Shown here piece by piece: positions 3,595 to 41,989 of a DNA stretch of 54,984 bases. The stretch comes from Myxococcales bacterium (GTDB taxonomy: Bacteria; Myxococcota_A; UBA9160; UBA4427), in NCBI GenBank assembly GCA_022563535.1, contig JADFNE010000028.1, forward strand, positions 1 to 54,984. Reading direction: 5' to 3'. The translations under genes were made by a program, and so were the position numbers. Position 1 is the first letter of the stretch. Each line of letters begins with the position of its first letter. The notes below the pieces were generated by a model. It was not told the DNA's origin. It searched no databases and saw only the letters and a list, made by a program, of their open reading frames with translations.

Positions 3595-4785
3595 TCAGGC
3601 GATCGGGGTCCACTCCCCGCGTGCGGCCACGCCGATGGGCCGGTTCAAGGCGGCAAGTCCATCCAGGGGATTGCCGTCGACGATCAAGACATCGGCACAA
3701 AGTCCTGTCCGCAGGGCGCCCGTCTCGTCAGCGAGTCCGAACGCATTGGCGGACTCGGAGGTGGCGCTGCGCAGTACGTCGACCGGCGAGCCCCCCGTGT
3801 ACTTGGAAAATACCGCCAGTGCTTCCGGTAGCTTGTGATGCATCACGCCTGGGATGCCGGCGTCGGTCGATGCGATCAACCGCACACCCCCCGCGATGAG
3901 CTGTCGAAGTGCGTGGGACATTCTTCGAAAAAAATCGGTCGGCGCCCCCTCGTGCTCAATTCGCTTTCCCCAGCCCGAGTTCACGGTGGGGGATACCCAG
4001 AGATTGGCAGCAGCCATCCGCACCACGAGTGCCGGGTCGAACGCGCTGCCAAAGCCGCCCGCTCCGGCAAACGAGCAGTGCTCGATCGTGCGAGCGCCCG
4101 CTGCGATTGCAAACGCGATTCCCTCACTACCGTGACAGTGCGCGGCCACGGGCCGGTCGTGCTGACCTGCCAACTCGACGAGTCCGCTGAGTGTTTTCAG
4201 ATCGAATTGCGTGCCGCGCGGTGACGAACCCGGTGTAAACACGCCTCCAGTCTCCATAACCTTGATCCAGTCGACCTCATGCTCGACCTGTCGTCGAATC
4301 ACCCGTTCGATGTCCTCGAGGCCGAGCGCTTCTCCACCCCAGAAGTGGCAGTGTCCTTTGGGCGTCGTGATCGGTTGCCCCGCGCAGAGAAGTCGTGGGC
4401 CGGGCAGTTTGCCGGCGAGTATGCGGTCGCGTAGCGCGATCTCCGACCAGTCGCCGCCGCCGAGATCTCGGGCCGTGGTAATCCCAGCCGTGAGCATTTC
4501 GGCCGCCCGTCGCTCCATTGCCTTGCGCCGTACGTCGGGTGCGACCGCCAACTGCTCGTCGGGAGTTTTGAGTTGTGGATCGAGGTTCAGGTGCACGTGG
4601 GCGTCGATCAGGCCCGGTATCGCCGTCGCTCCCTCAAAATCCAGAACGCGAGCATTACGTCGAAGTGAGGCATCGGTCCCGATCCCCGCGATGCGATTGC
4701 CCTCGATGCGCAGGGTCTGAAGCACTTCGGTTGCGTGCTCGGCAACACCGTCCCAGATCCTCACTCCCGCGATTGCGATTGCCAC
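3595..4785 (-). CDS. Metal-dependent amidohydrolase (imidazolonepropionase/prolidase-like)
   Basis: This is a 396-residue TIM-barrel amidohydrolase. Visible metal-site features are HxH at H63/H65 (DAHVHLN), a lysine in DWIKVMETGG (K175) that is carbamylated in relatives, AAHCHG (H216, H218), IEHCSF (H236) and the final Asp in ASTDAGIPG (D308). A small beta-sandwich is formed by the N- and C-terminal segments. The pattern fits the cytoplasmic subgroup that includes Xaa-Pro and Xaa-Arg dipeptidases and imidazolonepropionases; the exact substrate is uncertain. The start is a GTG. It is divergent from the MATE gene, with a 235-base gap that must hold both promoters. Confidence 0.85.
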   Translation of the reverse strand: MAIAIAGVRIWDGVAEHATEVLQTLRIEGNRIAGIGTDASLRRNARVLDFEGATAIPGLIDAHVHLNLDPQLKTPDEQLAVAPDVRRKAMERRAAEMLTAGITTARDLGGGDWSEIALRDRILAGKLPGPRLLCAGQPITTPKGHCHFWGGEALGLEDIERVIRRQVEHEVDWIKVMETGGVFTPGSSPRGTQFDLKTLSGLVELAGQHDRPVAAHCHGSEGIAFAIAAGARTIEHCSFAGAGGFGSAFDPALVVRMAAANLWVSPTVNSGWGKRIEHEGAPTDFFRRMSHALRQLIAGGVRLIASTDAGIPGVMHHKLPEALAVFSKYTGGSPVDVLRSATSESANAFGLADETGALRTGLCADVLIVDGNPLDGLAALNRPIGVAARGEWTPIA

Positions 4786-5020
4786 CCCTGAAGCCTAGCA
4801 GTCCGTCCTCGATCCCCCGCGGAGACGAAGCCCAACGAAGGCTATTCTGTGCGACAACGATGTAGAACGGATTTAGGCATGTGGCGCAGTGATGCCTTGA
4901 CGAGCTTCGCTCGTAGATAGGAAGTCCATACGAGATGAGGAAACCCAGTGAAGTACGACCCCTACGATTGCGGAACTGGATGCGAGTCCTGTCTGCGTCG
5001 GGTGTCAGGGATCGCTCGAT

Positions 5021-6370
5021 TTGAGCGCTGATCAATCAACCGCTCTGCCCGAACCCGGTTGGCTCGAGCGCTTCCGCGGGCGCGATCACACCCAGGGAAG
5101 TATCTATGGCTCGCTCGCGGTGCTTTCGCTTCCCATGGTGGCAACGAGTCTGTTCGGTGGAGTGATCTTCCAGATCGGCGACCTCAAGCTCATCAGTGGT
5201 CTCGGCACTGACGCGATGACGGCGATCATCATCACCAATCAGACCCTGCGACAGGTATTCATCATGGTGGTGATGGGGGCGAGCTTTGGAGCCCAGGGAA
5301 TGGTTGCCCGTGCGATTGGCAATGGAGATCAAGAGGCGGCCGATCACGTGGCGGGCCAGGTCATTCTTCTCGGAGTCGCACTGTCGGTTGTCATGGCCAG
5401 TCTCGGGATCTTCTTTCCCGCGGCAATGTTGAGGGCGATGCACGTTTCTCCTGAAGTTCTCGAGGTTGGCATTCCATACGTTCAACTCGTGATGATCCTG
5501 AACTTTGGGATGATCTTCGTTTTATTGACCAATTCAATTCTGACCGGCGCGGGCGACACCACGACCCCCTTCATGGTGTCGGTGACGCAGGCTTTGGTCG
5601 CGCTCTTTGCCGAGTATTGCCTGATCTACGGAAACTTTGGTCTGCCGGCGTTTGGCATCAGAGGTGCGGCGCTCGGTCTGATCTGCGGCCATCTGGTTTC
5701 GACTGCGATCATCGCCCGCGTCATCTTCCGGGGCAGAGCCCGGATCCATCTTCGGCGCAGACACCTGAGACCAGACGCCAAAGTACTCAAAGACATCATC
5801 AAGCAAGCCTGGCCCCCAGCCATGCAGATGCTCAGCGCCTTTCTCGTCACGATCTACTTCGTGCGCATGATGGGAAGTTTTGGGGACACCGCACAGGCAG
5901 CCTATTCGATTGGCCTGCGCCTGGGTATGGTGGGTCCCATGATCGCATTTCCGCTCGCGGGTGCGACCGCGACTCTGGTTGGGCAGATCCTCGGGGCGGG
6001 GAATCCAAGGCGAGCGTGGAAGTCTCTCTGGGTGGGACTCTCGATCCACGCGACATTGATGATCACGATGGCGATGGCTCTTTTCTTCTACCGCATTCCG
6101 TTTTTGGAGGAGTTCAGCAGCGACGCAGCAGTGGTCGAGATCGGTGACGAGATGCTCTTCTATCAATTGCTGAGTTTCATCTCTCTCGCCAACTCGATAT
6201 TCAACGTGGCGCTCGGGACGTATCTCGCCGTGGGTCTCGACTACGGACCCAGCGGGATCTTCATTTCAGGCCTCGTCAGCTCGGTTTTCGTCACCATCAC
6301 TACGGCGGGTTGGATCGCGACGGGACGCTGGACACGGAGAGGCGCGCAGCCGTTCGATGCGCCTTGTTAG
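5021..6370 (+). CDS. MATE-family multidrug/metabolite efflux transporter
   Basis: This is a 449-residue inner-membrane protein with about twelve hydrophobic segments in two related halves, the length and arrangement typical of MATE (DinF/NorM-like) antiporters. Segments such as SLPMVATSLFGGVIFQIGD and the repeated GxGDTTTP-type element (LTGAGDTTTPFMVS) are characteristic. It should export organic cations or other small molecules in exchange for Na+ or H+. The only upstream in-frame start is a TTG at 5021; the ribosome site is weak. Its stop TAG overlaps the TAA stop of the convergent TPR gene by four bases (TTAG). Confidence 0.87.
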   Translation: MSADQSTALPEPGWLERFRGRDHTQGSIYGSLAVLSLPMVATSLFGGVIFQIGDLKLISGLGTDAMTAIIITNQTLRQVFIMVVMGASFGAQGMVARAIGNGDQEAADHVAGQVILLGVALSVVMASLGIFFPAAMLRAMHVSPEVLEVGIPYVQLVMILNFGMIFVLLTNSILTGAGDTTTPFMVSVTQALVALFAEYCLIYGNFGLPAFGIRGAALGLICGHLVSTAIIARVIFRGRARIHLRRRHLRPDAKVLKDIIKQAWPPAMQMLSAFLVTIYFVRMMGSFGDTAQAAYSIGLRLGMVGPMIAFPLAGATATLVGQILGAGNPRRAWKSLWVGLSIHATLMITMAMALFFYRIPFLEEFSSDAAVVEIGDEMLFYQLLSFISLANSIFNVALGTYLAVGLDYGPSGIFISGLVSSVFVTITTAGWIATGRWTRRGAQPFDAPC

Positions 6371-7083
6371 CGGTCCCAGTCCGCCCCGGGCGATGAGACT
6401 GCTCTGGTCTCGGCATCGCTGCCCGGGCTTTGTTCTTCAACCCAACCGCGAAGCCAGGCAACGGTTTCGGGACTGATGGATGTTCCGTCGGCGGCCGAAG
6501 TCTCGGGCGCCTCGAGCCACACTTCCATCGCCGACAACAACTGGCCCGCCTTCTCGCGGTCGAGCGTCCGGAGTCGTGTGTAGCTGTGGCTCGCATCCTC
6601 GAATCGGCCGAGGGCGAGATAGGCTTCGGCTCGGTATTCGAGGGCTTCGGGGTAGCCCGGTTTCAATTTGAGTGCGAGATCATACGAGGCGATCGCTTTG
6701 TCGTACCGACCGAGTTTGCGCAGGGTATATCCGAGGCTCGAGTGTGCCTGATAGTACTTGGGCAACTGCTTGATCGCGGCCCGATAGTATTTTTCCGCCG
6801 CGGACCAGTCCTTGACCGCCTTGGACAGCTGCTTGTCGCGTTTCTTTTCAGAACTGGCGCTGATTGCCCTGGCTTCGTGCTTCAAGGCGCTGTCGCGTCT
6901 GCGCAACCCTCGGTTGTAATCCCTTTCGGCGAACCTTTCTGGACCGCGAGCGGAGCTCTTGTTGCCGCCGGCAGATCCAACACCACCATATCCCCCCCCG
7001 GCCGCGAAAACTGAGATCGGTGAGAAACACAGAGTGAATGCCACGACCAAGAGCAGGGATCGAGACGAATCTATCCGCATCAT
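6367..7083 (-). CDS. Exported TPR-repeat protein
   Basis: This is a 238-residue protein. Residues 1-28 form a signal peptide (MMRIDSSRSLLLVVAFTLCF, ending after FAA). A Gly/Ser-rich linker (GGGYGGVGSAGG) follows, then a basic helical stretch, then three tetratricopeptide units at about 90-190 (for example AHSSLGYTLRKLGRYDKAIA and ALEYRAEAYLALGRFEDA). Such proteins are usually periplasmic scaffolds. It overlaps the convergent MATE gene by four bases. There is no obvious partner; the 92-base gap to the signalling operon upstream suggests its own transcript or read-through. Confidence 0.8.
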   Translation of the reverse strand: MMRIDSSRSLLLVVAFTLCFSPISVFAAGGGYGGVGSAGGNKSSARGPERFAERDYNRGLRRRDSALKHEARAISASSEKKRDKQLSKAVKDWSAAEKYYRAAIKQLPKYYQAHSSLGYTLRKLGRYDKAIASYDLALKLKPGYPEALEYRAEAYLALGRFEDASHSYTRLRTLDREKAGQLLSAMEVWLEAPETSAADGTSISPETVAWLRGWVEEQSPGSDAETRAVSSPGADWDR

Positions 7084-7175
7084 GGCTTCAGTACTCCCTG
7101 GGCGCCAACGCCTGCGAGTAGCTGATTATGCCAGAATCGACATCCGATCGCGATTCATTCGCCTGCTGCCCTGTG

Positions 7176-8909
7176 TCACTCGCTCGGATCACCCGAGTCC
7201 CCCATGACATTAATGAGCGAGATGAGCAGATCGTCCTTGCTGATCGGCTTGGTCACCACCCCGCCCATTCCCGCTTCGAAGCAGAGATCGTGATCCTCCG
7301 CCATGGCATTGGCGGTTAGTGCGATGATGGGCACGTCGCATGTCGGGCTGGGCAATTTTCGAATTGCGCGAGTGGCGCCGTAGCCATCCAGGACCGGCAT
7401 CATGCAGTCCATCAACACCACATCAAATCGCACTCGCTTGACGAACTCCAGCGCCTCACGTCCGTCATCGGCAGTATCCACCCGACAATTCCAGCGTTCG
7501 AGAATGCGTCTTGCGACCGTCTGGTTGACGGTGTTGTCGTCCACCACCAGCACCCTCAAGCCGTCCACCTTCTCGTGCATCCGATCGGTCTGGAGCTCCG
7601 CGGCGACATCAGGTGACGCTTGACCCCTGCCCATGGTCAAGTCGATGGTGAATGTCGTCCCTCTGCCCGGAACGCTTTCAGCACTGATCTCGCCCCCCAT
7701 GAGCTCGACGAGTCCCTGGGTGATCGCCAGACCTAATCCCGTACCGCCGAATTTTCGAGTCGTGGACCCATCCGCCTGGGTGAACCGCTCGAAGATGTGG
7801 CTGAGGGCTTCAGCCTCAATGCCGACTCCTGAATCCGATACTTGAAAGGACATCCGCACCAGGTCGTCGGCCAGGGCCTCTTGCCGGAACTGTATGGTTA
7901 CCGTTCCCTCTCGCGTAAACTTGAGTGCGTTGCTCAGCAAGTTGCAGAGTATCTGCTGTAGTCGCGTGCCGTCTCCGCGAACTAGGCAATGGGATCCTTC
8001 GTCCGGCAAATCCAGCGAAAAATCGATTCCCTTGGATGAGGCTTGTCGTTCGAATAGGCTTGCGACATCGTGAAGCGTCTGAACCGGGTCGAAGTCTCTG
8101 ACTTCGAGGTTGATGAAGCCGGCTTCCATCTTCGAGTAGTCGAGGATGTCATTCAGAATGGCGAGTAGAGATTTTCCGGAGTCTACGATGGTATCGAGGT
8201 CGGCCTTCTGTTCGGGCCGATCTTCGATTTCGGCAAGGGACTCCGCGAGGCCCAGCACGCCGTTCAGTGGTGTTCTTATTTCGTGGCTCATGTTGGCGAG
8301 GAACTCGGATTTCATTCGATTCGCGATATCTGCCTGTTCGCGCAGCTCCTCCGAATTTATCAGCGCGGCCTGGAGATCTCTCTTGGTCGCCAGCAGTTCA
8401 TCGGTCAGCCGGAGGAATTCGGGTTGCATGGCGTCGACGGAGACGGTCGCGTGAAAAATCCCAAAGTGGGTCTCGAGCGCGAAGGTCTTCAGAACCACGT
8501 TGGGGAAGCGAAGAGTGCCGTAGAGAATCTTGGGGGCGTACATGGTCACGAGGGAGTTTTCGCCGACCTGCAAGAGCGAAAGGCACTCTCCCGCGGCGGT
8601 GTTCATGGCTTCTGCAAAGAGGCCTTCGTATTCTGCTCGTTCGGCTTTCCGCTCATGAATGGCCGGCAGATCATCCATGCTCAGAATTGAAGCCAGCGTC
8701 TTTTCGTCAGTAGAGACCATGAGGTTTCCGGTTTTGGTTCCGGTAAAATCAATTATGGTGGCGAGGGGTTCTGTAAACTTTTGTTCGACGTCGGACGAGA
8801 TTGTGCCGACTGCACCCATGTCGACACCGGTCATGCCGGAAATGCACTGAACGAGCTGGACAAGCAAAGCTTTGCCCAGTGCGTCGAGATCATTTTCTTC
8901 TGCCGGCAT
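7176..8909 (-). CDS. Hybrid histidine kinase with N-terminal CheX-like domain
   Basis: This is a 577-residue cytoplasmic protein. Residues 1 to about 165 resemble a CheX-like domain: the helix FAEAMNTAAGE has the E-x-x-N pattern of that family. A short coiled coil follows. The HisKA dimerisation domain has H209 in ANMSHEIRTPLNG. The HATPase domain has the N box NLLSNALKF, G1 DSGVGI and G2 GGTGLGLA. A receiver domain at about 452-570 has D501 (VVLMDCMMPVLDG) and the Lys of TKP. No membrane segment or PAS domain is present, so the CheX-like part is the likely sensor or phosphatase module. It is the last gene of the operon, 27 bases after the separate CheX gene. Confidence 0.85.
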   Translation of the reverse strand: MPAEENDLDALGKALLVQLVQCISGMTGVDMGAVGTISSDVEQKFTEPLATIIDFTGTKTGNLMVSTDEKTLASILSMDDLPAIHERKAERAEYEGLFAEAMNTAAGECLSLLQVGENSLVTMYAPKILYGTLRFPNVVLKTFALETHFGIFHATVSVDAMQPEFLRLTDELLATKRDLQAALINSEELREQADIANRMKSEFLANMSHEIRTPLNGVLGLAESLAEIEDRPEQKADLDTIVDSGKSLLAILNDILDYSKMEAGFINLEVRDFDPVQTLHDVASLFERQASSKGIDFSLDLPDEGSHCLVRGDGTRLQQILCNLLSNALKFTREGTVTIQFRQEALADDLVRMSFQVSDSGVGIEAEALSHIFERFTQADGSTTRKFGGTGLGLAITQGLVELMGGEISAESVPGRGTTFTIDLTMGRGQASPDVAAELQTDRMHEKVDGLRVLVVDDNTVNQTVARRILERWNCRVDTADDGREALEFVKRVRFDVVLMDCMMPVLDGYGATRAIRKLPSPTCDVPIIALTANAMAEDHDLCFEAGMGGVVTKPISKDDLLISLINVMGDSGDPSE

Positions 8910-8936
8910 GCGCTCTTTCAGTCCAGTCGTACGCGA

Positions 8937-9428
8937 TCAAAGCAAAAAAAGACATTTGATTCTTCCCGCCGACGTTGCCAGAGCCGACCGGCGGATCTGT
9001 AGGCGTCCGTAGCTCATCTTTCCGTAGCTCACCCGCGGTGTGCCAAACTTGAGGATTCCGAGTTCTTCGAGTTGAATTACTGCTTGGCCCACTACGCTGT
9101 TCAAGAGCTCCGAGAAAGCGTTGCTATATTCCTCTCCGACCGATTCAACCTGGGAACTCGTCGCATCCGGAGAAGTGATTGCACACGATGCCGCGGCCAC
9201 GCGTTCGTCTGTGGCGATGATGTACTCCCCGGTTGTCAAGATTTCCTTCCCGATTCCGGTGAACTGGATTCGCACAGAAAAGGGCATTTCGGTCAGATAT
9301 TTCTTGCTGGCCTGCTCAGCCTCATCCGTTGTCACCTTGGCCCCACACGCGAACATGTCTTCCAGTGCATCTTGCGTGAGTTCTCGGAAATAGCCGACGT
9401 GCTGGGCGATGACATCGTCGATGGTCAT
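8937..9428 (-). CDS. CheX-like phosphatase-family protein
   Basis: This is a 163-residue protein of the CheX/CheC type. The helix FSELLNSVVGQAV has the E-x-x-N active-site pattern that removes phosphate from CheY in known members. Its ATG overlaps the TGA of the response regulator upstream (ATGA at 9425-9428), so the two are translationally coupled. This makes the regulator its most probable substrate. The last ten residues (AGRIKCLFLL) are unusually hydrophobic and do not look like a domain end. Confidence in the fold is good; the partner is inferred from order and coupling. Confidence 0.78.
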   Translation of the reverse strand: MTIDDVIAQHVGYFRELTQDALEDMFACGAKVTTDEAEQASKKYLTEMPFSVRIQFTGIGKEILTTGEYIIATDERVAAASCAITSPDATSSQVESVGEEYSNAFSELLNSVVGQAVIQLEELGILKFGTPRVSYGKMSYGRLQIRRSALATSAGRIKCLFLL

Positions 9429-9790
9429 TTTTCGATGGCCTCCAGAATGACCCTGCGGAATTCGTTGCAGAAGGCTTCGTCACTGAATTTTAGTGGCTTT
9501 TCGATAAAGCCTCTTGCACCGAGATTCAGACAGCTCATGATCATCTTGCGATCTTTCACCGCAGAGACGATCACCGCGCGTGCGCGGTCATCCGCTTGCA
9601 AAACCTCTTCCAGGCATTGGCGACCGTCCTTGTTGGGCATTGTGATGTCCAACAAAATCAAATCGGGTCGGTGTTCGAGATAGAGGTTGACGCCCTCGAT
9701 TCCGTCTTGACCCTCGGCGACCACTTCGTGGCCCTCGGCTTCGAGAAATTTCCTGATCTGCTTCACCAGGAAGGGGCTGTCATCCATCAA
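9425..9790 (-). CDS. CheY-like response regulator, 5' end frameshifted
   Basis: This is a single receiver domain. The acidic pair (MDDSPF), the phosphorylation site Asp (LILLDITMPNKDG), the conserved Ser (VIVSAV) and the Lys of EKP are all present. The open frame begins only at TTG 9790 and lacks the first beta strand. The missing residues lie just upstream in another frame: from TTG 9809, six bases after AAAGGAG, the reading is M-A-R-I-I-L-V-D, and it then runs out of frame at a tandem CATCCATC (9781-9788). Removing one CATC restores an intact ARIILVDDSPF. The gene as sequenced is therefore either frameshifted or an assembly error. The fold is doubtful without strand one, though an internal start is possible. 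Confidence 0.75.
   Translation of the reverse strand: MMDDSPFLVKQIRKFLEAEGHEVVAEGQDGIEGVNLYLEHRPDLILLDITMPNKDGRQCLEEVLQADDRARAVIVSAVKDRKMIMSCLNLGARGFIEKPLKFSDEAFCNEFRRVILEAIEK
9781..9788. repeat. 4-bp tandem duplication (CATC)x2 that breaks the response-regulator frame
   Basis: Two adjacent copies of CATC (GATG on the coding strand) shift the reading frame at codons VD|D of the receiver domain. With one copy the receiver reads through with the normal beta1-DD motif. This is a direct sequence observation; whether it is biological or technical cannot be decided here. Confidence 0.8.
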
Positions 9791-9862
9791 CCAGTATGAT
9801 ACGTGCCAAAATCATCTCCTTTGTCTTTATGTGCTACCCGCTCGAAAGCGTGTTCGCGTTCT

Positions 9863-11017
9863 TCATTCATAGACTCCGGGCAGTTCGGGCTTTCGAATGG
9901 AAAGCCGAATGGTGACTTCGACCCCTTCACCCAGACGTGATCGAACTGCAATGGTGCCGCCCTGCCGCTCTACGGTGTGTTTCACTGCATCCATCCCCAC
10001 TCCTCTGCCGCTGAGTTCATCCACGCTTTCACGCGAACTCAACCCGACTCGGAATACGAGATCTAGCTTGTCCTGATCGCTGAGCGCTGAAGCCTCCGTC
10101 TCGCTGAGGTGCTCTGCTTCGAGGGCCTTTTGGACGAGGCGTTCGGTATCGATGCCGGCGCCGTCGTCTGACACCGAAAGAACTGCCCATTCGTCGCCGA
10201 TCTCCGCCGAGATGTCGATCTTTCCCCAACGGGATTTTCCGCGTGATGCTCGAGTCGCGTCGTCTTCGATTCCGTGGGCGATGGCGTTACGAATCAGGTG
10301 GACTAGACAGGTATCGAAGACTCGGACGATCGAGCGGGGTATCAATTGCTTGGCGCCGTGAATGTTCAACTCCGGTTCGGTCTTGCCGAGTCGTTCGGCC
10401 TGAGATTTGAGTAGCCGCGGATAGTGGGCACAACATCTGCTGAAGGGCACGGCGTCGAGCGCTTCCAGGCGTAGTGCAGCGGTCGGTCCATCGATACCTT
10501 CAGCGTGAAGCAGGCCGAGGATCGAGTCGAATCGCTCGCGATTGACCGAGAGTGATCCGGCAGAGCCTTCATTGCGCTTCTCCCGCAGGCCCTCCAGGCG
10601 CTCGATTGCACCTGCCAACTCGGGGAGTAGTCCGCGCCATTTCTCCCAATCGCCGGGATCCGGATGGGTGCGAACGCTGGCGAGCAGGTCTTCGAGGGCG
10701 CCCGCCGCACTTGCCAGGTGATCAAAGTCCAGGGTCCCAGAGTTGCCCTTCAGGGTGTGGAGGTCTCGGTGGAGCTTGCCCCCGGGATCTGCGAGATCTT
10801 CCGAGGTTCGCAGCCCTTCGGCCTCGCGCAGGGTTTCCTTGGCGACATCGGCCAACTGCTCGAGAATGGCGGGCTCAGTGCTGAAAGCACTGTGGAGTTC
10901 GCGCACTTTCGTGTCACGTTGTTGACGGGGCTTCTCGAGTGCAACTTCTGCCAGCCGAGTCTCGGTGATGTCGGTGGTGAGGATGAGGATTCGGGCCAGC
11001 TGCCCGTCCTCGAGCAC
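9863..11017 (-). CDS. CheA-like Hpt-HATPase kinase, C-terminal part after an in-frame TGA
   Basis: This is the 3' part of a gene whose 5' part is 11105-11902. Both parts are in the same frame, separated by a TGA at 11105-11107. The true coding continuation begins directly after the TGA (D-Q-Y-E-K-L-N-P-L-R-E-R), completing a PAS domain (LEYRPVLEDG, ILTTDITETR). An Hpt domain follows with the phospho-His in LHRDLHTLKGNSG. Next come a dimer-like region and a CheA-type HATPase (LIRNAIAHGIED, DDGAGID, SGRGVGMDAVK). There is no CheW-like domain. It should phosphorylate the adjacent receiver. The listed start is the first internal GTG, which may not be used. Confidence 0.75.
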   Translation of the reverse strand: MLEDGQLARILILTTDITETRLAEVALEKPRQQRDTKVRELHSAFSTEPAILEQLADVAKETLREAEGLRTSEDLADPGGKLHRDLHTLKGNSGTLDFDHLASAAGALEDLLASVRTHPDPGDWEKWRGLLPELAGAIERLEGLREKRNEGSAGSLSVNRERFDSILGLLHAEGIDGPTAALRLEALDAVPFSRCCAHYPRLLKSQAERLGKTEPELNIHGAKQLIPRSIVRVFDTCLVHLIRNAIAHGIEDDATRASRGKSRWGKIDISAEIGDEWAVLSVSDDGAGIDTERLVQKALEAEHLSETEASALSDQDKLDLVFRVGLSSRESVDELSGRGVGMDAVKHTVERQGGTIAVRSRLGEGVEVTIRLSIRKPELPGVYE

Positions 11018-11104
11018 CGGCCGGTACTCCAGGGAGAGCGTACGCGTCTGATCCCCAGATTTGATGGTGCGCTCACGCAGGGGGTTGAGTTTTTCGTATT
11101 GGTC

Positions 11105-11902
11105 TCAGCGCTTTAAAAAACGCGGTTGCTGGACGAGTTCAATCCAGTTGTCCAGCTCCTCTCGTTCGCTCTGGTTCGAGTTGAGCAACTCCGCGATGTG
11201 CACGCCGTGCAAGTCGCGTCTACCCAGCATGGAATTGGCCTTGCGCGAGTGTACGGGGCCTACGTGACCGGCTTTGTCGAAAGTCAGCACGCCTTGCCCG
11301 AGGTTGTCGAACATGAGTGAGAGCTCACCCGATACCGAGCGAATTTCTCGCTCGCCCTTCTGCAGCTGTTTTTCCATCCAGGATAGGAGCCAGGCAATCA
11401 GGGCCGTCACCGGCAAGAGAAGTGCCAACCCGAGCTTGGCGGTAAATACGAGAGCCTCGGCTGCATCTCGATGAATCTGCTCTTCGCTGAGAGCAATCAA
11501 AAAATGCCCCATGGCTTCGCCTTCGTGACTGAGAGAGGCTACCCGATAGGCGATGTCTTCATCACGACCGGTGCCTTGCGAAAGAGTCGAGCGAAGCATT
11601 TCGTCGCTCAAGGTAAAGCTCGAAGGTACGGAAAGGATGGCGTCTCCATCTACATCTAGCAGCAGACCACCGGCGAAAGCGGCATCGGATTGCAGGCTCA
11701 GGAGGAAGGCTTGGACCGCCTGGATGTCTCCGCTCTTGAGCCCCAGCTCCACGTTGGCGGTGGTGAGGATCGCCATGGTTTCTTGCCGATCTCTCGCTGA
11801 GGCGAGTGCGTCGCTCTGGCTGCGCTTGGCCAGGATTGTCACGGTGGCGGTGGACGCCCCGACCAGGAGCAAGAGAATGATTACGAGGATCGCACGGCGC
11901 AC
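11105..11902 (-). CDS. Membrane sensor with PAS domain: N-terminal part of the broken CheA-like kinase
   Basis: The coding start is best placed at GTG 11902, preceded by GAGGAG, although the frame is open further upstream. The protein starts with a membrane segment (AILVIILLLLVGASTATVT), then a periplasmic sensor region of about 130 residues, a second membrane segment (LGLALLLPVTALIAWLLSW), a coiled linker, and the first half of a PAS domain (LMFDNLGQGVLTFD). It stops at TGA 11105-11107 after PRFLKR. The same frame continues as the rest of the PAS, Hpt and HATPase domains. A Trp (TGG to TGA) is the likely ancestral residue. As sequenced this product would be a sensor without a catalytic part. 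Confidence 0.75.
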   Translation of the reverse strand: MRRAILVIILLLLVGASTATVTILAKRSQSDALASARDRQETMAILTTANVELGLKSGDIQAVQAFLLSLQSDAAFAGGLLLDVDGDAILSVPSSFTLSDEMLRSTLSQGTGRDEDIAYRVASLSHEGEAMGHFLIALSEEQIHRDAAEALVFTAKLGLALLLPVTALIAWLLSWMEKQLQKGEREIRSVSGELSLMFDNLGQGVLTFDKAGHVGPVHSRKANSMLGRRDLHGVHIAELLNSNQSEREELDNWIELVQQPRFLKR

Positions 11903-12232
11903 TGCGCACACTCCTCGATTCGTCGATGAAAGATCGAACGGTTGAAGCCATGTGCTGCCGGTAGCAACGCGGACACGACTTGCCTCTCGTTTGCGAAAGA
12001 AAAAAATCAGGCAATCCAGATCTTTCCAACCCGGTATCGCCTTCGCGCTCTCTCCAATATCGACGTGAGCCGGATGGGGCTTGAGATGGCGAAGCGATCG
12101 AATTCGATCTCGTCGTCCTGCACAGTTCAGTCTCAATCGGTCCTGAAGCAGGTGCTCAGGTGTTCTACCGAGATAGCCAGGATGGTGTGCCGCGGTTGCG
12201 AACGAAAGCTGGGAAACCCAGGCAACAGGCTG
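11903..12232. other. Intergenic region upstream of the signalling operon
   Basis: No gene is seen here. A perfect 14-bp palindrome GATCGAATTCGATC lies at 12096-12109, some 190 bases before the sensor start, and could be a regulator site. A small hairpin CTGGG-AAA-CCCAG at 12209-12221, just after the M50 protease stop on the minus strand, may help end that transcript. Both are read directly from the sequence; the functions are inference. Confidence 0.4.
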
Positions 12233-12922
12233 CTAGGGCAGCACCCACACTCGGACAAAACCGAATACCCAGCGGAACAAGTCGCCAAACAAGGTCCATG
12301 CGAGAAGCAGCCCAATCCACCCAAACATTGGGCGGCGCATCGCATTTTGAACGCGGCGCGCGTTGTCGTCCGAGAGCAACAGGGCAATGGCCATGCTGCC
12401 GTCGAGCGGGGGCACGGGCAGCATGTTGAAGACGAATAGAATCAGGTTCATCGAGAACAAGATGCTCAGCACGTGTGCGACGGAGGGCCAGATCCCCTCG
12501 TTCAGGGCCCCTACGAGGTGACCCAGCTGCAGTGAAGCACCGGAGACGAACAGTCCCGAAGCGGCGCCAGCCTGAAAGCACAGAGCACAGAAGACAACGA
12601 TCGCGAGATTGGCCCCCGGCCCGGCCAGCGACATCCACGCCGCGCGTTTTGGGTGGCGATATGCCCATTCGAGGTTGTATGGCGCGCTTGCAAATCCGAG
12701 CGGCCAACCGATGTACATGATCGACAAGATCGGCATCACCACCATGCCAATGGGCGAACGCCGAATATGCGGCTCGGGGTCGAGCGAAACTTGCCCGCCC
12801 AGATAGGCTGTCGGGTCGCCACCGCGCAACGCCGCCCAGGCGTGCGCTGCCTCGTGACAGGTCACGGAGACCAGGAAGGCCAGGTACCACAACACCCCAT
12901 CGCCCCAATTATCCAACGCCAC
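12233..12922 (-). CDS. Site-2 protease family (M50) membrane metalloprotease
   Basis: This is a 229-residue polytopic inner-membrane protein. The zinc-binding HExxH lies in the first membrane segment (TCHEAAHAW). The third ligand is in the later motif NMLPVPPLDGS, the family NxxPxxxLDG pattern. About five or six hydrophobic segments are visible. The short form, without PDZ or CBS domains, matches the minimal rhomboid-like M50 proteins that cleave within membranes. Its substrate is unknown. It is divergent from nothing close: the DUF2167 gene upstream is on the same strand with a 28-base gap, so the two may form an operon. Confidence 0.88.
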   Translation of the reverse strand: MALDNWGDGVLWYLAFLVSVTCHEAAHAWAALRGGDPTAYLGGQVSLDPEPHIRRSPIGMVVMPILSIMYIGWPLGFASAPYNLEWAYRHPKRAAWMSLAGPGANLAIVVFCALCFQAGAASGLFVSGASLQLGHLVGALNEGIWPSVAHVLSILFSMNLILFVFNMLPVPPLDGSMAIALLLSDDNARRVQNAMRRPMFGWIGLLLAWTLFGDLFRWVFGFVRVWVLP

Positions 12923-12950: not shown

Positions 12951-13940
12951 CTAGTCATGTCCGGGGGAGTCAGGGGGAATCCCGGATTGCGTCAGATCGG
13001 AGTGTGGATCCGATTTACGGCTCCCGAATACGCGCTTGAGAATCCCCCCCGCTCCGATCAACAGTACGATGGCGTACTTTTTGAATACCAGGAGCAGCGG
13101 CGCAAACTTGGCCAGGAGTCCCGCCTTGGCGGCCAGCTTGCCCGCGACCAACGCGCCAATTCCGTATGCGGCGACGGTGTCGACATCCGGGTCGAAGTCG
13201 ACATAGCGACTCCCCACATCAAACTCGATCAACGGCAGCAAGCCCTGCATGGCGCTCTGCACTTCCCATAGCTGGTCCGTCGTAGACACCGCGTTCATGA
13301 CCAGCACGCCGCGTCGACTGAGCGCGCGAATGTTGTAGTTGAGGGTGTGTCGCTCCGCATCGCCAAAGACCAGTTCTTTGGCCCAGTACAGCTGGTGGGT
13401 GTCGACGTCGTAGTACGGTGGTTCGGCCCAACCCACGAGTTCGATCCGGCTGTAGCCCGCGTGCTCTCGTTCGTCGCTCGCGGCCCGGGTTTCGGCTTGC
13501 ATTTCGACCAGGAGTTCGTCGTACCGAATGTCGGCCGCGTCCTCGTCGGAGACGTAGCCATCCTCGTCGAACGAAAGGATGACGGCCCAGGTCTCAGAAC
13601 CGAATACTGAAAACTCCGCTGGAACGATTGCGCCGAGGGTCTCGGCACCGGGCGGGTTGCCCCAGGCTTCTACGAGTATGCGCGCAGTTTGTTGCGGGTC
13701 GAGATAGCGATACGCGGAACTGAGGTGCAACTGCGCGTTGGCAGCCTCGAGTTCGATGTCACCAGACTGATACTCGAGCGCTGCTTCGAACTCTGCCGCC
13801 CAGCGCTGCGCTTCTTCATCGCTGGGTTGTGCCGCAGCGACGAGAGGTGCTGCGGCCATTCTGCAGAGCAGCAGTGCCGCGAGCGCGGCTGCCGCCCAGC
13901 CGTTGCAGGTGAGAGATCTATTGATGTCGAATCGCTGCAT
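12951..13940 (-). CDS. DUF2167 family membrane-anchored protein
   Basis: The protein has 329 residues from ATG 13940, which is preceded by GGAG at good spacing; the frame extends to a weaker TTG at 13976. It has an N-terminal signal sequence (AALAALLLCRMAAAPLVAAA). The body has the DUF2167 features: SGDIELEAANAQLHLSSAYRYLD, a WGNPPG, LGAIVPAEFSVF, then FDEDGYVSDEDA. Near the C-terminus there are one or two membrane segments (FAPLLLVFKKYAIVLLIGAGG). Members are found in many proteobacteria, are exported and membrane-bound, and have no known function. Confidence 0.85.
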   Translation of the reverse strand: MQRFDINRSLTCNGWAAAALAALLLCRMAAAPLVAAAQPSDEEAQRWAAEFEAALEYQSGDIELEAANAQLHLSSAYRYLDPQQTARILVEAWGNPPGAETLGAIVPAEFSVFGSETWAVILSFDEDGYVSDEDAADIRYDELLVEMQAETRAASDEREHAGYSRIELVGWAEPPYYDVDTHQLYWAKELVFGDAERHTLNYNIRALSRRGVLVMNAVSTTDQLWEVQSAMQGLLPLIEFDVGSRYVDFDPDVDTVAAYGIGALVAGKLAAKAGLLAKFAPLLLVFKKYAIVLLIGAGGILKRVFGSRKSDPHSDLTQSGIPPDSPGHD

Positions 13941-14241
13941 CAAAACTCCAATCGTAGGGTCGCGGAGTGTAGGCAAAACGGCCGCCGACCTCGCACCGGA
14001 CTTTTCACGGACCGCATTTTCTCGGCGACTCGTTCGATGACCGGCAACCCCCCGTCGTTACTACTGAAAATCCCTCGAGAATCAGCTCAAGATAGACTCG
14101 GTCGCGCCGATCCTCGGAGGCAGATGGCGCACGAGAAAATCACGGCCCGCGGGTCGTGGAAGCTGTCGCAGTACTCGTAGACATAGGTCGATTTTCTGAT
14201 CGGCGTACCCGTCGATGTTCTTGTCGAGATAGGAGGACGCT
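13941..14241. other. Divergent intergenic region before the glycan cluster
   Basis: This is about 300 bases between the DUF2167 gene and the SGNH-like gene, which point away from each other, so it should hold promoters for both. I see no gene, repeat or clear promoter hexamers. The only firm element is a perfect AGGAGG at 14231-14236, at its downstream edge. Confidence 0.4.
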
Positions 14242-41303: not shown

Positions 41304-41804
41304 TCAGTATTCCGGAACGTAGATCTCGCATGCGAGCTTGTCCCCGCCAGCGATCACCAGCAGGCGACCGAGAGCGAGGTATTGGCCGATCATCATGCCC
41401 AGTTCCGCGATCTCAGCATCTGCAAAGCACTTGCGAAGTTCCGCTTTGAAGGCCGAATCCACGGTCCGAAAGTCTGTTGCGAGCTTCTCTGCGAAGCGCA
41501 CAGCCAGGGCCTCCCGGGGATCGAGTTTGCGCTCTGCTTCGGGCAAGTGAATCTGTGCAATGGTCTCTTCGTCGAGTCCCTGACGCGTCGCCGACGCGTA
41601 CCGAGCGAACAGTCAGGTGTCGCATCCATTGAGGGCGGCAATCTTGAGGCGTGCGAGCTCCTTGATGCGACAGGGAACGACTCCCTCCAGATGTCCTGGG
41701 CGGAAGAACTCGAAAAACCGGGCGAAGTGCTCGGGGATGAGCTCCATGAGGTTCAGGCTTTCATCGGCGGGATTCGAGTTCGCGATGGGTTGCATGCTGT
41801 CCAT
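41304..41804 (-). CDS. Putative selenoprotein: AhpD/CMD-like with CxxU redox motif
   Basis: This is one 166-residue protein when the in-frame TGA at 41613-41615 is read as selenocysteine; ordinary calling splits it. The start is ATG 41804, five bases after AAGGAG. The carboxymuconolactone decarboxylase/AhpD-like region runs RIKELARLKIAALNGCDT, then U64, then LFARYASATRQGLDEETIAQI, and on to an intact helical C-terminus (EALAVRFAEKLATDF). The TGA falls exactly where the second Cys of the CxxC redox pair belongs (C61-x-x-U64). A hairpin with a GGC loop follows at SECIS distance. The gene ends with another TGA. A Cys-to-stop mutation is the alternative, but the hairpin and intact downstream frame argue against decay. 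Confidence 0.75.
41583..41599 (-). promoter_or_regulatory. Candidate bacterial SECIS element
   Basis: Reading the minus strand, a perfect 7-bp stem ACGCGTC-GGC-GACGCGT starts 13 nt after the TGA, so 20 nt separate the TGA from the apical loop. The loop starts with G. These features fit the bacterial SECIS model: a stem-loop just downstream of UGA, with a G in the first two loop positions. It lies within the coding region, as in other bacterial selenoprotein genes. Confidence 0.7.
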
Positions 41805-41989
41805 GTTGACTCCTTGCAGCACTGGGGTTCGGCCCGAAAGTGTATCAACCCGCAAATCGGGTTGCCCGCGCCGGAGATTCTCAACCCAGCCCGATCGATA
41901 TTTGTATATATAGAAGCAAGAGTTGCACTCGGGTCTGCGCAGGCCTCCCCAAGCGGCTCATGGCAAGACCCAGAGCGACTCCGACTGTC

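Follow-up and report, generated by a model that had tools for sequence, protein, structure and literature searches.

In the tetranucleotide phase variation of Haemophilus influenzae, the count of 4-bp units close to the gene start decides the reading frame, and a Haemophilus repeat survey took tetramers as phase-variable candidates only where they had more than two units (PMC2651432). According to a 2025 review, a locus should be called phase-variable only once spontaneous reversion has been seen (PMC11868660). Frame-shifting indels in natural populations of M. tuberculosis are the subject of the ScarTrek survey (PMC8339072).

The window (the whole 54,984-nucleotide stretch of DNA analysed here) resembles the Haemophilus loci in that the number of 4-bp units sets the frame near a gene start. 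Read directly on the minus strand, AAAGGAG (9822-9816) is followed by ATGATT, by TTG (9809-9807) and by the codons GCA CGT ATC ATA CTG GTT GAT GGA TGA. The frame from this TTG encodes M-ARIILVDG and is closed by TGA 9782-9780, inside the region of GATGGATG, where GATG stands in two copies (9788-9785 and 9784-9781). The remaining receiver (MDDSPF...) is open in a different frame, from TTG 9790 or ATG 9787 to a stop at 9425, and matches Pfam Response_reg from profile position 4 onwards (PF00072, 77.5 bits with a cut-off of 30.2, profile positions 4-103 of 111). An earlier note, made from the letters alone, had placed and described this frame break correctly; its proposal that a four-base net gain at the GATG tandem breaks the regulator start is borne out by the comparison with orthologues given below. 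The stub is more than a chance frame because of the protein evidence, not because of the repeat: ARIILVD ranks first among the 109,928 seven-residue windows in all six frames of the window, as scored with a table derived from 22 orthologues. With the four bases discounted, the spacing from TTG to the first Asp is 7 residues (start counted), as in the closest orthologues. The features of the locus are listed in Table 1.

Table 1. Features of the interrupted kinase-regulator pair and of the genes downstream (positions in the window).
Feature	Positions	Strand	Evidence
GATGGATG, two-copy 4-bp tandem, frame-breaking excess relative to orthologues	9781..9788	-	absent in 22/22 orthologues
Stub frame TTG-ARIILVDG-stop: receiver start and beta-1 strand	9780..9809	-	sequence, orthologue scoring table
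AAAGGAG, Shine-Dalgarno-like, 6 nt ahead of TTG 9809	9816..9822	-	sequence
Response regulator remainder (MDDSPF...AIEK), 27/27 invariant columns, without beta-1	9425..9790	-	PF00072, alignment
In-frame TGA in the partner kinase	11105..11107	-	Trp in 16/16 orthologous kinases
Kinase after TGA: Hpt and HATPase_c domains	9863..11104	-	Pfam, from GTG 11017
Kinase before TGA: membrane/sensor part and start of PAS-like region	11108..11980	-	continuous alignment to L123 kinase
CheX-like protein, intact frame	8937..9428	-	hit in L124; weak self-similarity to CheX part of hybrid kinase
Hybrid histidine kinase: CheX-like N-terminus, HisKA, HATPase_c, receiver; intact frame	7176..8909	-	Pfam

The orthologues come from a scan of named genomes with the open part of the regulator as the query, which kept 80 loci (140 relatives among 209 stretches); the top 22 (L123-L144, 43-60% identical over most of the protein) form the orthologue set, and the other 58 were left out of the alignment. 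Their record titles name Gemmatimonadetes, Calditrichia, SAR324, Gammaproteobacteria (including Beggiatoa-like), Fibrobacteres, Chitinivibrionales, Desulfobacterales and others, and the invariant motif LDITMPNKDG is common to all 22 and to the window. The frame through M..VDDS is unbroken in every one of the 22 and GATGGATG occurs near this motif in none of them, so that the window's frame is disrupted relative to a uniformly intact set, as is expected of a pseudogene. The open part keeps 27 of 27 invariant receiver columns of the family alignment, among them D2 and D3, D47, S75 and K97, which we take to be the acidic pair, the phospho-acceptor, the Thr/Ser position and the Lys position, respectively. 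Querying 60 relatives with the regulator returned mainly a different CheY-like family (36-45% identical), whose 29 loci (L004-L032) served only for layout inspection. No strain close enough for dating the lesions was found among 97 related genomes, in genome_contigs or by the regulator scan, and the genome holds no second copy of the gene (nothing but the window itself matches beyond 52 bases).

Relative to the orthologue with the closest layout (L123), which reads GTTGATGACAGC where the window reads GTTGATGGATGACAGC, the excess is exactly four bases. Because the repeat is absent from all 22 orthologues, the parent sequence likely carried a single GATG, and the simplest history that the alignments suggest would be that GATG was newly duplicated in tandem rather than gained by slippage inside an existing tract. 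The event had been described in the earlier note as classic slippage; with the repeat in 0 of 22 orthologues there was probably no pre-existing tract, and the description is not supported. By itself, a two-copy GATG repeat is unremarkable. We counted 181 two-copy tetramer tracts where shuffled sequence gives about 164, and 6 occurrences of GATGGATG (2.79 expected), and the window contains no three-copy tetramer tract; at only two units, the copy number is not above chance, as it would be in a simple-sequence-repeat phase-variable gene.

The partner kinase carries a lesion of its own. Its frame is interrupted by TGA 11107-11105 (LKR*DQYEKLNP), at a site occupied by Trp in all 16 orthologous kinases that reach it, a count made solely on kinases from the 22 regulator-orthologue loci (ten are shown in a separate alignment). 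Three additional kinases at L124, L142 and L131, which are separate genes next to the orthologous one, show Leu, Phe and a gap in this column. TGG becomes TGA through one G-to-A substitution. Across the interruption, the alignment to the L123 kinase (3929-5929) is continuous (34% identity, E 7e-121). Searching 377 genomes of the phylum with the kinase gave matches in 279, none of them a full-length orthologue; 17 kinase stretches from other genomes were aligned, and the TGA site aligns poorly there. Selenocysteine at this TGA was considered and rejected, given Trp in the orthologues and no strong hairpin after the codon (fold z -0.72); the genome does have a tRNA-Sec (C65:8600-8694). Elsewhere in the window, a carboxymuconolactone decarboxylase/AhpD-like frame (41304-41855, minus strand) is a candidate selenoprotein: its TGA (41615-41613) falls at the second position of C-x-x-C (NGCDT*LFARYA), Pfam CMD is matched at 33.8 bits when read through, an NCBIfam match to a YciW-related (seleno)protein is weak (34.3 bits, far below the cut-off), and the 7-bp hairpin after the TGA folds no better than shuffles (z -0.19).

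Both genes belong to an operon-like run on the minus strand, comprising a CheA-like kinase (about 11980-9863), the regulator (9809-9425), the CheX-like gene, whose start overlaps the regulator stop (ATGA, 9428-9425), and the hybrid kinase. A DUF2167 membrane protein (12951-13976, minus strand; strong match at 276 bits) is encoded upstream of the kinase. The same order of kinase, regulator, CheX-containing protein(s) and hybrid kinase is found in L123 (a Gemmatimonadetes MAG) and L124 (a Calditrichia MAG), whose regulators are 55-58% identical to that of the window; unlike in the window, their kinase and regulator frames are unbroken, with kinases of 702 and 758 aa, and the CheX-containing genes are likewise unbroken. 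In L123, the kinase, regulator and CheX-hybrid genes follow the window's order. No promoter-like site was found in 7000-12300, where the only three minus-strand terminator-like sites all lie upstream of the regulator, and the window has no Rfam match. The CheX-like protein and the CheX-hybrid kinase (7176-9428) reach at most marginal scores in 96 related genomes: querying these genomes (the window's own not counted) with the CheX-like protein gave 2 weak matches (E about 5e-4), and genome_contigs gave no match to it. Regulator orthologues are scattered across distant phyla. Because the CheX genes are nearly absent from related genomes while regulator orthologues occur so far afield, the operon may have been acquired by horizontal transfer. 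A plasmid search returned general regulators only, below 60% identity.

We compared predicted structures of the open part and of the intact L124 orthologue, both built with the same 23 sequences. While L124 is modelled with five strands, the open part (mean pLDDT 92, a confidence that does not imply a stable truncated protein) has only three, at 44-47, 71-75 and 93-96. The piece missing from the model is beta-1, and beta-2 is left without its partner; no single frame encodes the five-stranded receiver fold, since the beta-1 codons lie in another frame. The best solved matches are CheY-type receivers, including CheX-bound CheY (3hzh), aligned from residue 9-10 on; in the best alignments, model residue 3 corresponds to residue 10 of Thermotoga CheY, and residues 1-9 have no counterpart.

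Interrupted signalling genes also occur elsewhere in this genome. One of its 126 receiver matches, of which 123 exceed the Pfam cut-off, contains an internal TGA, and among 79 HATPase matches (75 above the cut-off) one contains a TAA, amounting to about one broken signalling gene per hundred domains, a figure that is a rough guide and not a test. The former is a receiver gene with an in-frame TGA inside the conserved domain (L116, G000:C52:11439-11771), while in the latter the TAA lies near the end of the HATPase domain (L207, G000:C44:34232-34564). None of 53 receiver matches in a related genome of the genus is broken. Of the 123 receivers, 8 start after profile position 2, and the window's is the sole one of these in a short frame; the other 7 have open frames 348-855 aa long (two were translated). 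Because breaks affect about one domain per hundred and yet both lesions fall in one neighbouring pair, it is suggestive that the unit is under relaxed selection.

Taken together, these observations argue, with a probability of about three in four, that the regulator is a young pseudogene and that its pair with the kinase is in the course of being lost. On this account, a single-domain CheY-like regulator would have been inactivated by a 4-bp GATG tandem duplication at codons 8-9. Translation from TTG 9809 would end after a short stub, and a restart at ATG 9787, which precedes the first base of the stop by five bases, would yield a receiver without its first strand, which should be unstable or inert. 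The kinase would have been hit independently, by a Trp-to-TGA nonsense change in its PAS-like region. Two separate lesions make it most likely that the pair, as a signalling unit, died recently or is dying, and the retention of all 27 invariant receiver residues makes the lesion look recent. The frame break, its size relative to the orthologues and the kinase stop stand in the sequence itself, as does the conservation around them; from these we infer a loss of activity, and likewise any order of events and any polarity on the downstream genes. The earlier note had named decay as an alternative, which is consistent with two lesions in the pair. Against decay, all 27 invariant columns are kept, the downstream genes are open and no decay is visible elsewhere; either mild decay or errors would account for the in-frame stops in other signalling genes, one among 123 receivers and one among 75 HATPase domains.

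The main rival is an error of assembly or consensus, by which the organism would have a single GATG and an intact regulator. The genome is probably metagenome-derived (97.88% complete, 1.43% contaminated) and comes in 147 contigs, the window being one of them; the receiver remainder is perfectly conserved at invariant sites, and two lesions in one operon could equally be two consensus errors. We nevertheless consider this unlikely: no homopolymer is involved, gain of a 4-bp tandem is not a usual error of short-read or long-read consensus, and a separate lesion, of a single base, hits an invariant Trp of the adjoining kinase. It is very unlikely, to the point of being barely credible, that a departed insertion element, and not a replication error, left the four extra bases as its target-site duplication; duplication ends free of microhomology, as judged against GTTGATGACAGC of L123, suit a staggered cut, but no element remnant is present at the site, an element that departs precisely and leaves only the duplication is rare, and the functional outcome would be identical to that of the pseudogene reading.

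Other explanations would keep the module useful. There is a slight chance that the gene still works, through +1 frameshifting at GGA-UGA-C or a restart at ATG 9787, together with leaky reading of UGA as Trp in the kinase, so that a little of both proteins would still be made, enough to be of use. A C after UGA makes for a poor stop context, as in prfB, and at a Trp site UGA is, of the stops, the one that most readily gives the native residue by misreading; ATG 9787 sits 5 bases upstream of the stop, and the downstream CheX-like and hybrid genes are intact. However, no orthologue needs recoding (22 of 22 are in frame), a product restarted there is without beta-1 and is modelled with two strands fewer than the usual five, and ATG 9787 lies 28 bases away from the Shine-Dalgarno-like sequence. 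The earlier note had also suggested a reversible on/off switch, in which gain or loss of one GATG would act as phase variation. Dropping one copy would restore the frame, and a position near the start is where phase-variable tracts act, but the tract has only two copies in a window without three-copy tetramers, is absent from all 22 orthologues, and its contraction would leave the kinase nonsense codon in place. It also falls short of the more than two units that the Haemophilus survey required (PMC2651432), and we saw no reversion of the kind that the 2025 review demands (PMC11868660); we therefore regard a switch as highly improbable. Literature searches for printed cases by combined terms, and for the lacI tetramer, found no case and nothing useful. 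Finally, it is a far-fetched idea, which nothing directly supports, that the pair is leaky-off, with UGA read as Trp giving some full-length kinase, one-copy and two-copy forms of the regulator coexisting, and the module recoverable by one common mutation.

As it stands, the preferred reading, a young pseudogene in a pair being lost, describes an ordinary inactivating mutation and an example of the first steps of module loss, with both genes hit once and the rest still conserved. It also carries a warning: the frequency of two-copy tetramers and the intactness of the partner gene should be checked before a switch is inferred. The locus departs from Haemophilus influenzae in having two units and not a long tract, orthologues without a tract, and a partner gene that is also broken (PMC2651432). 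It is closer to frameshift pseudogenes of two-component systems and to the cases of the ScarTrek survey, in that an otherwise conserved gene is put out of frame by a small indel, which a second indel could in principle reverse. Whereas that survey covers populations, the window comes from one assembly, and an unrelated nonsense codon interrupts the partner gene.
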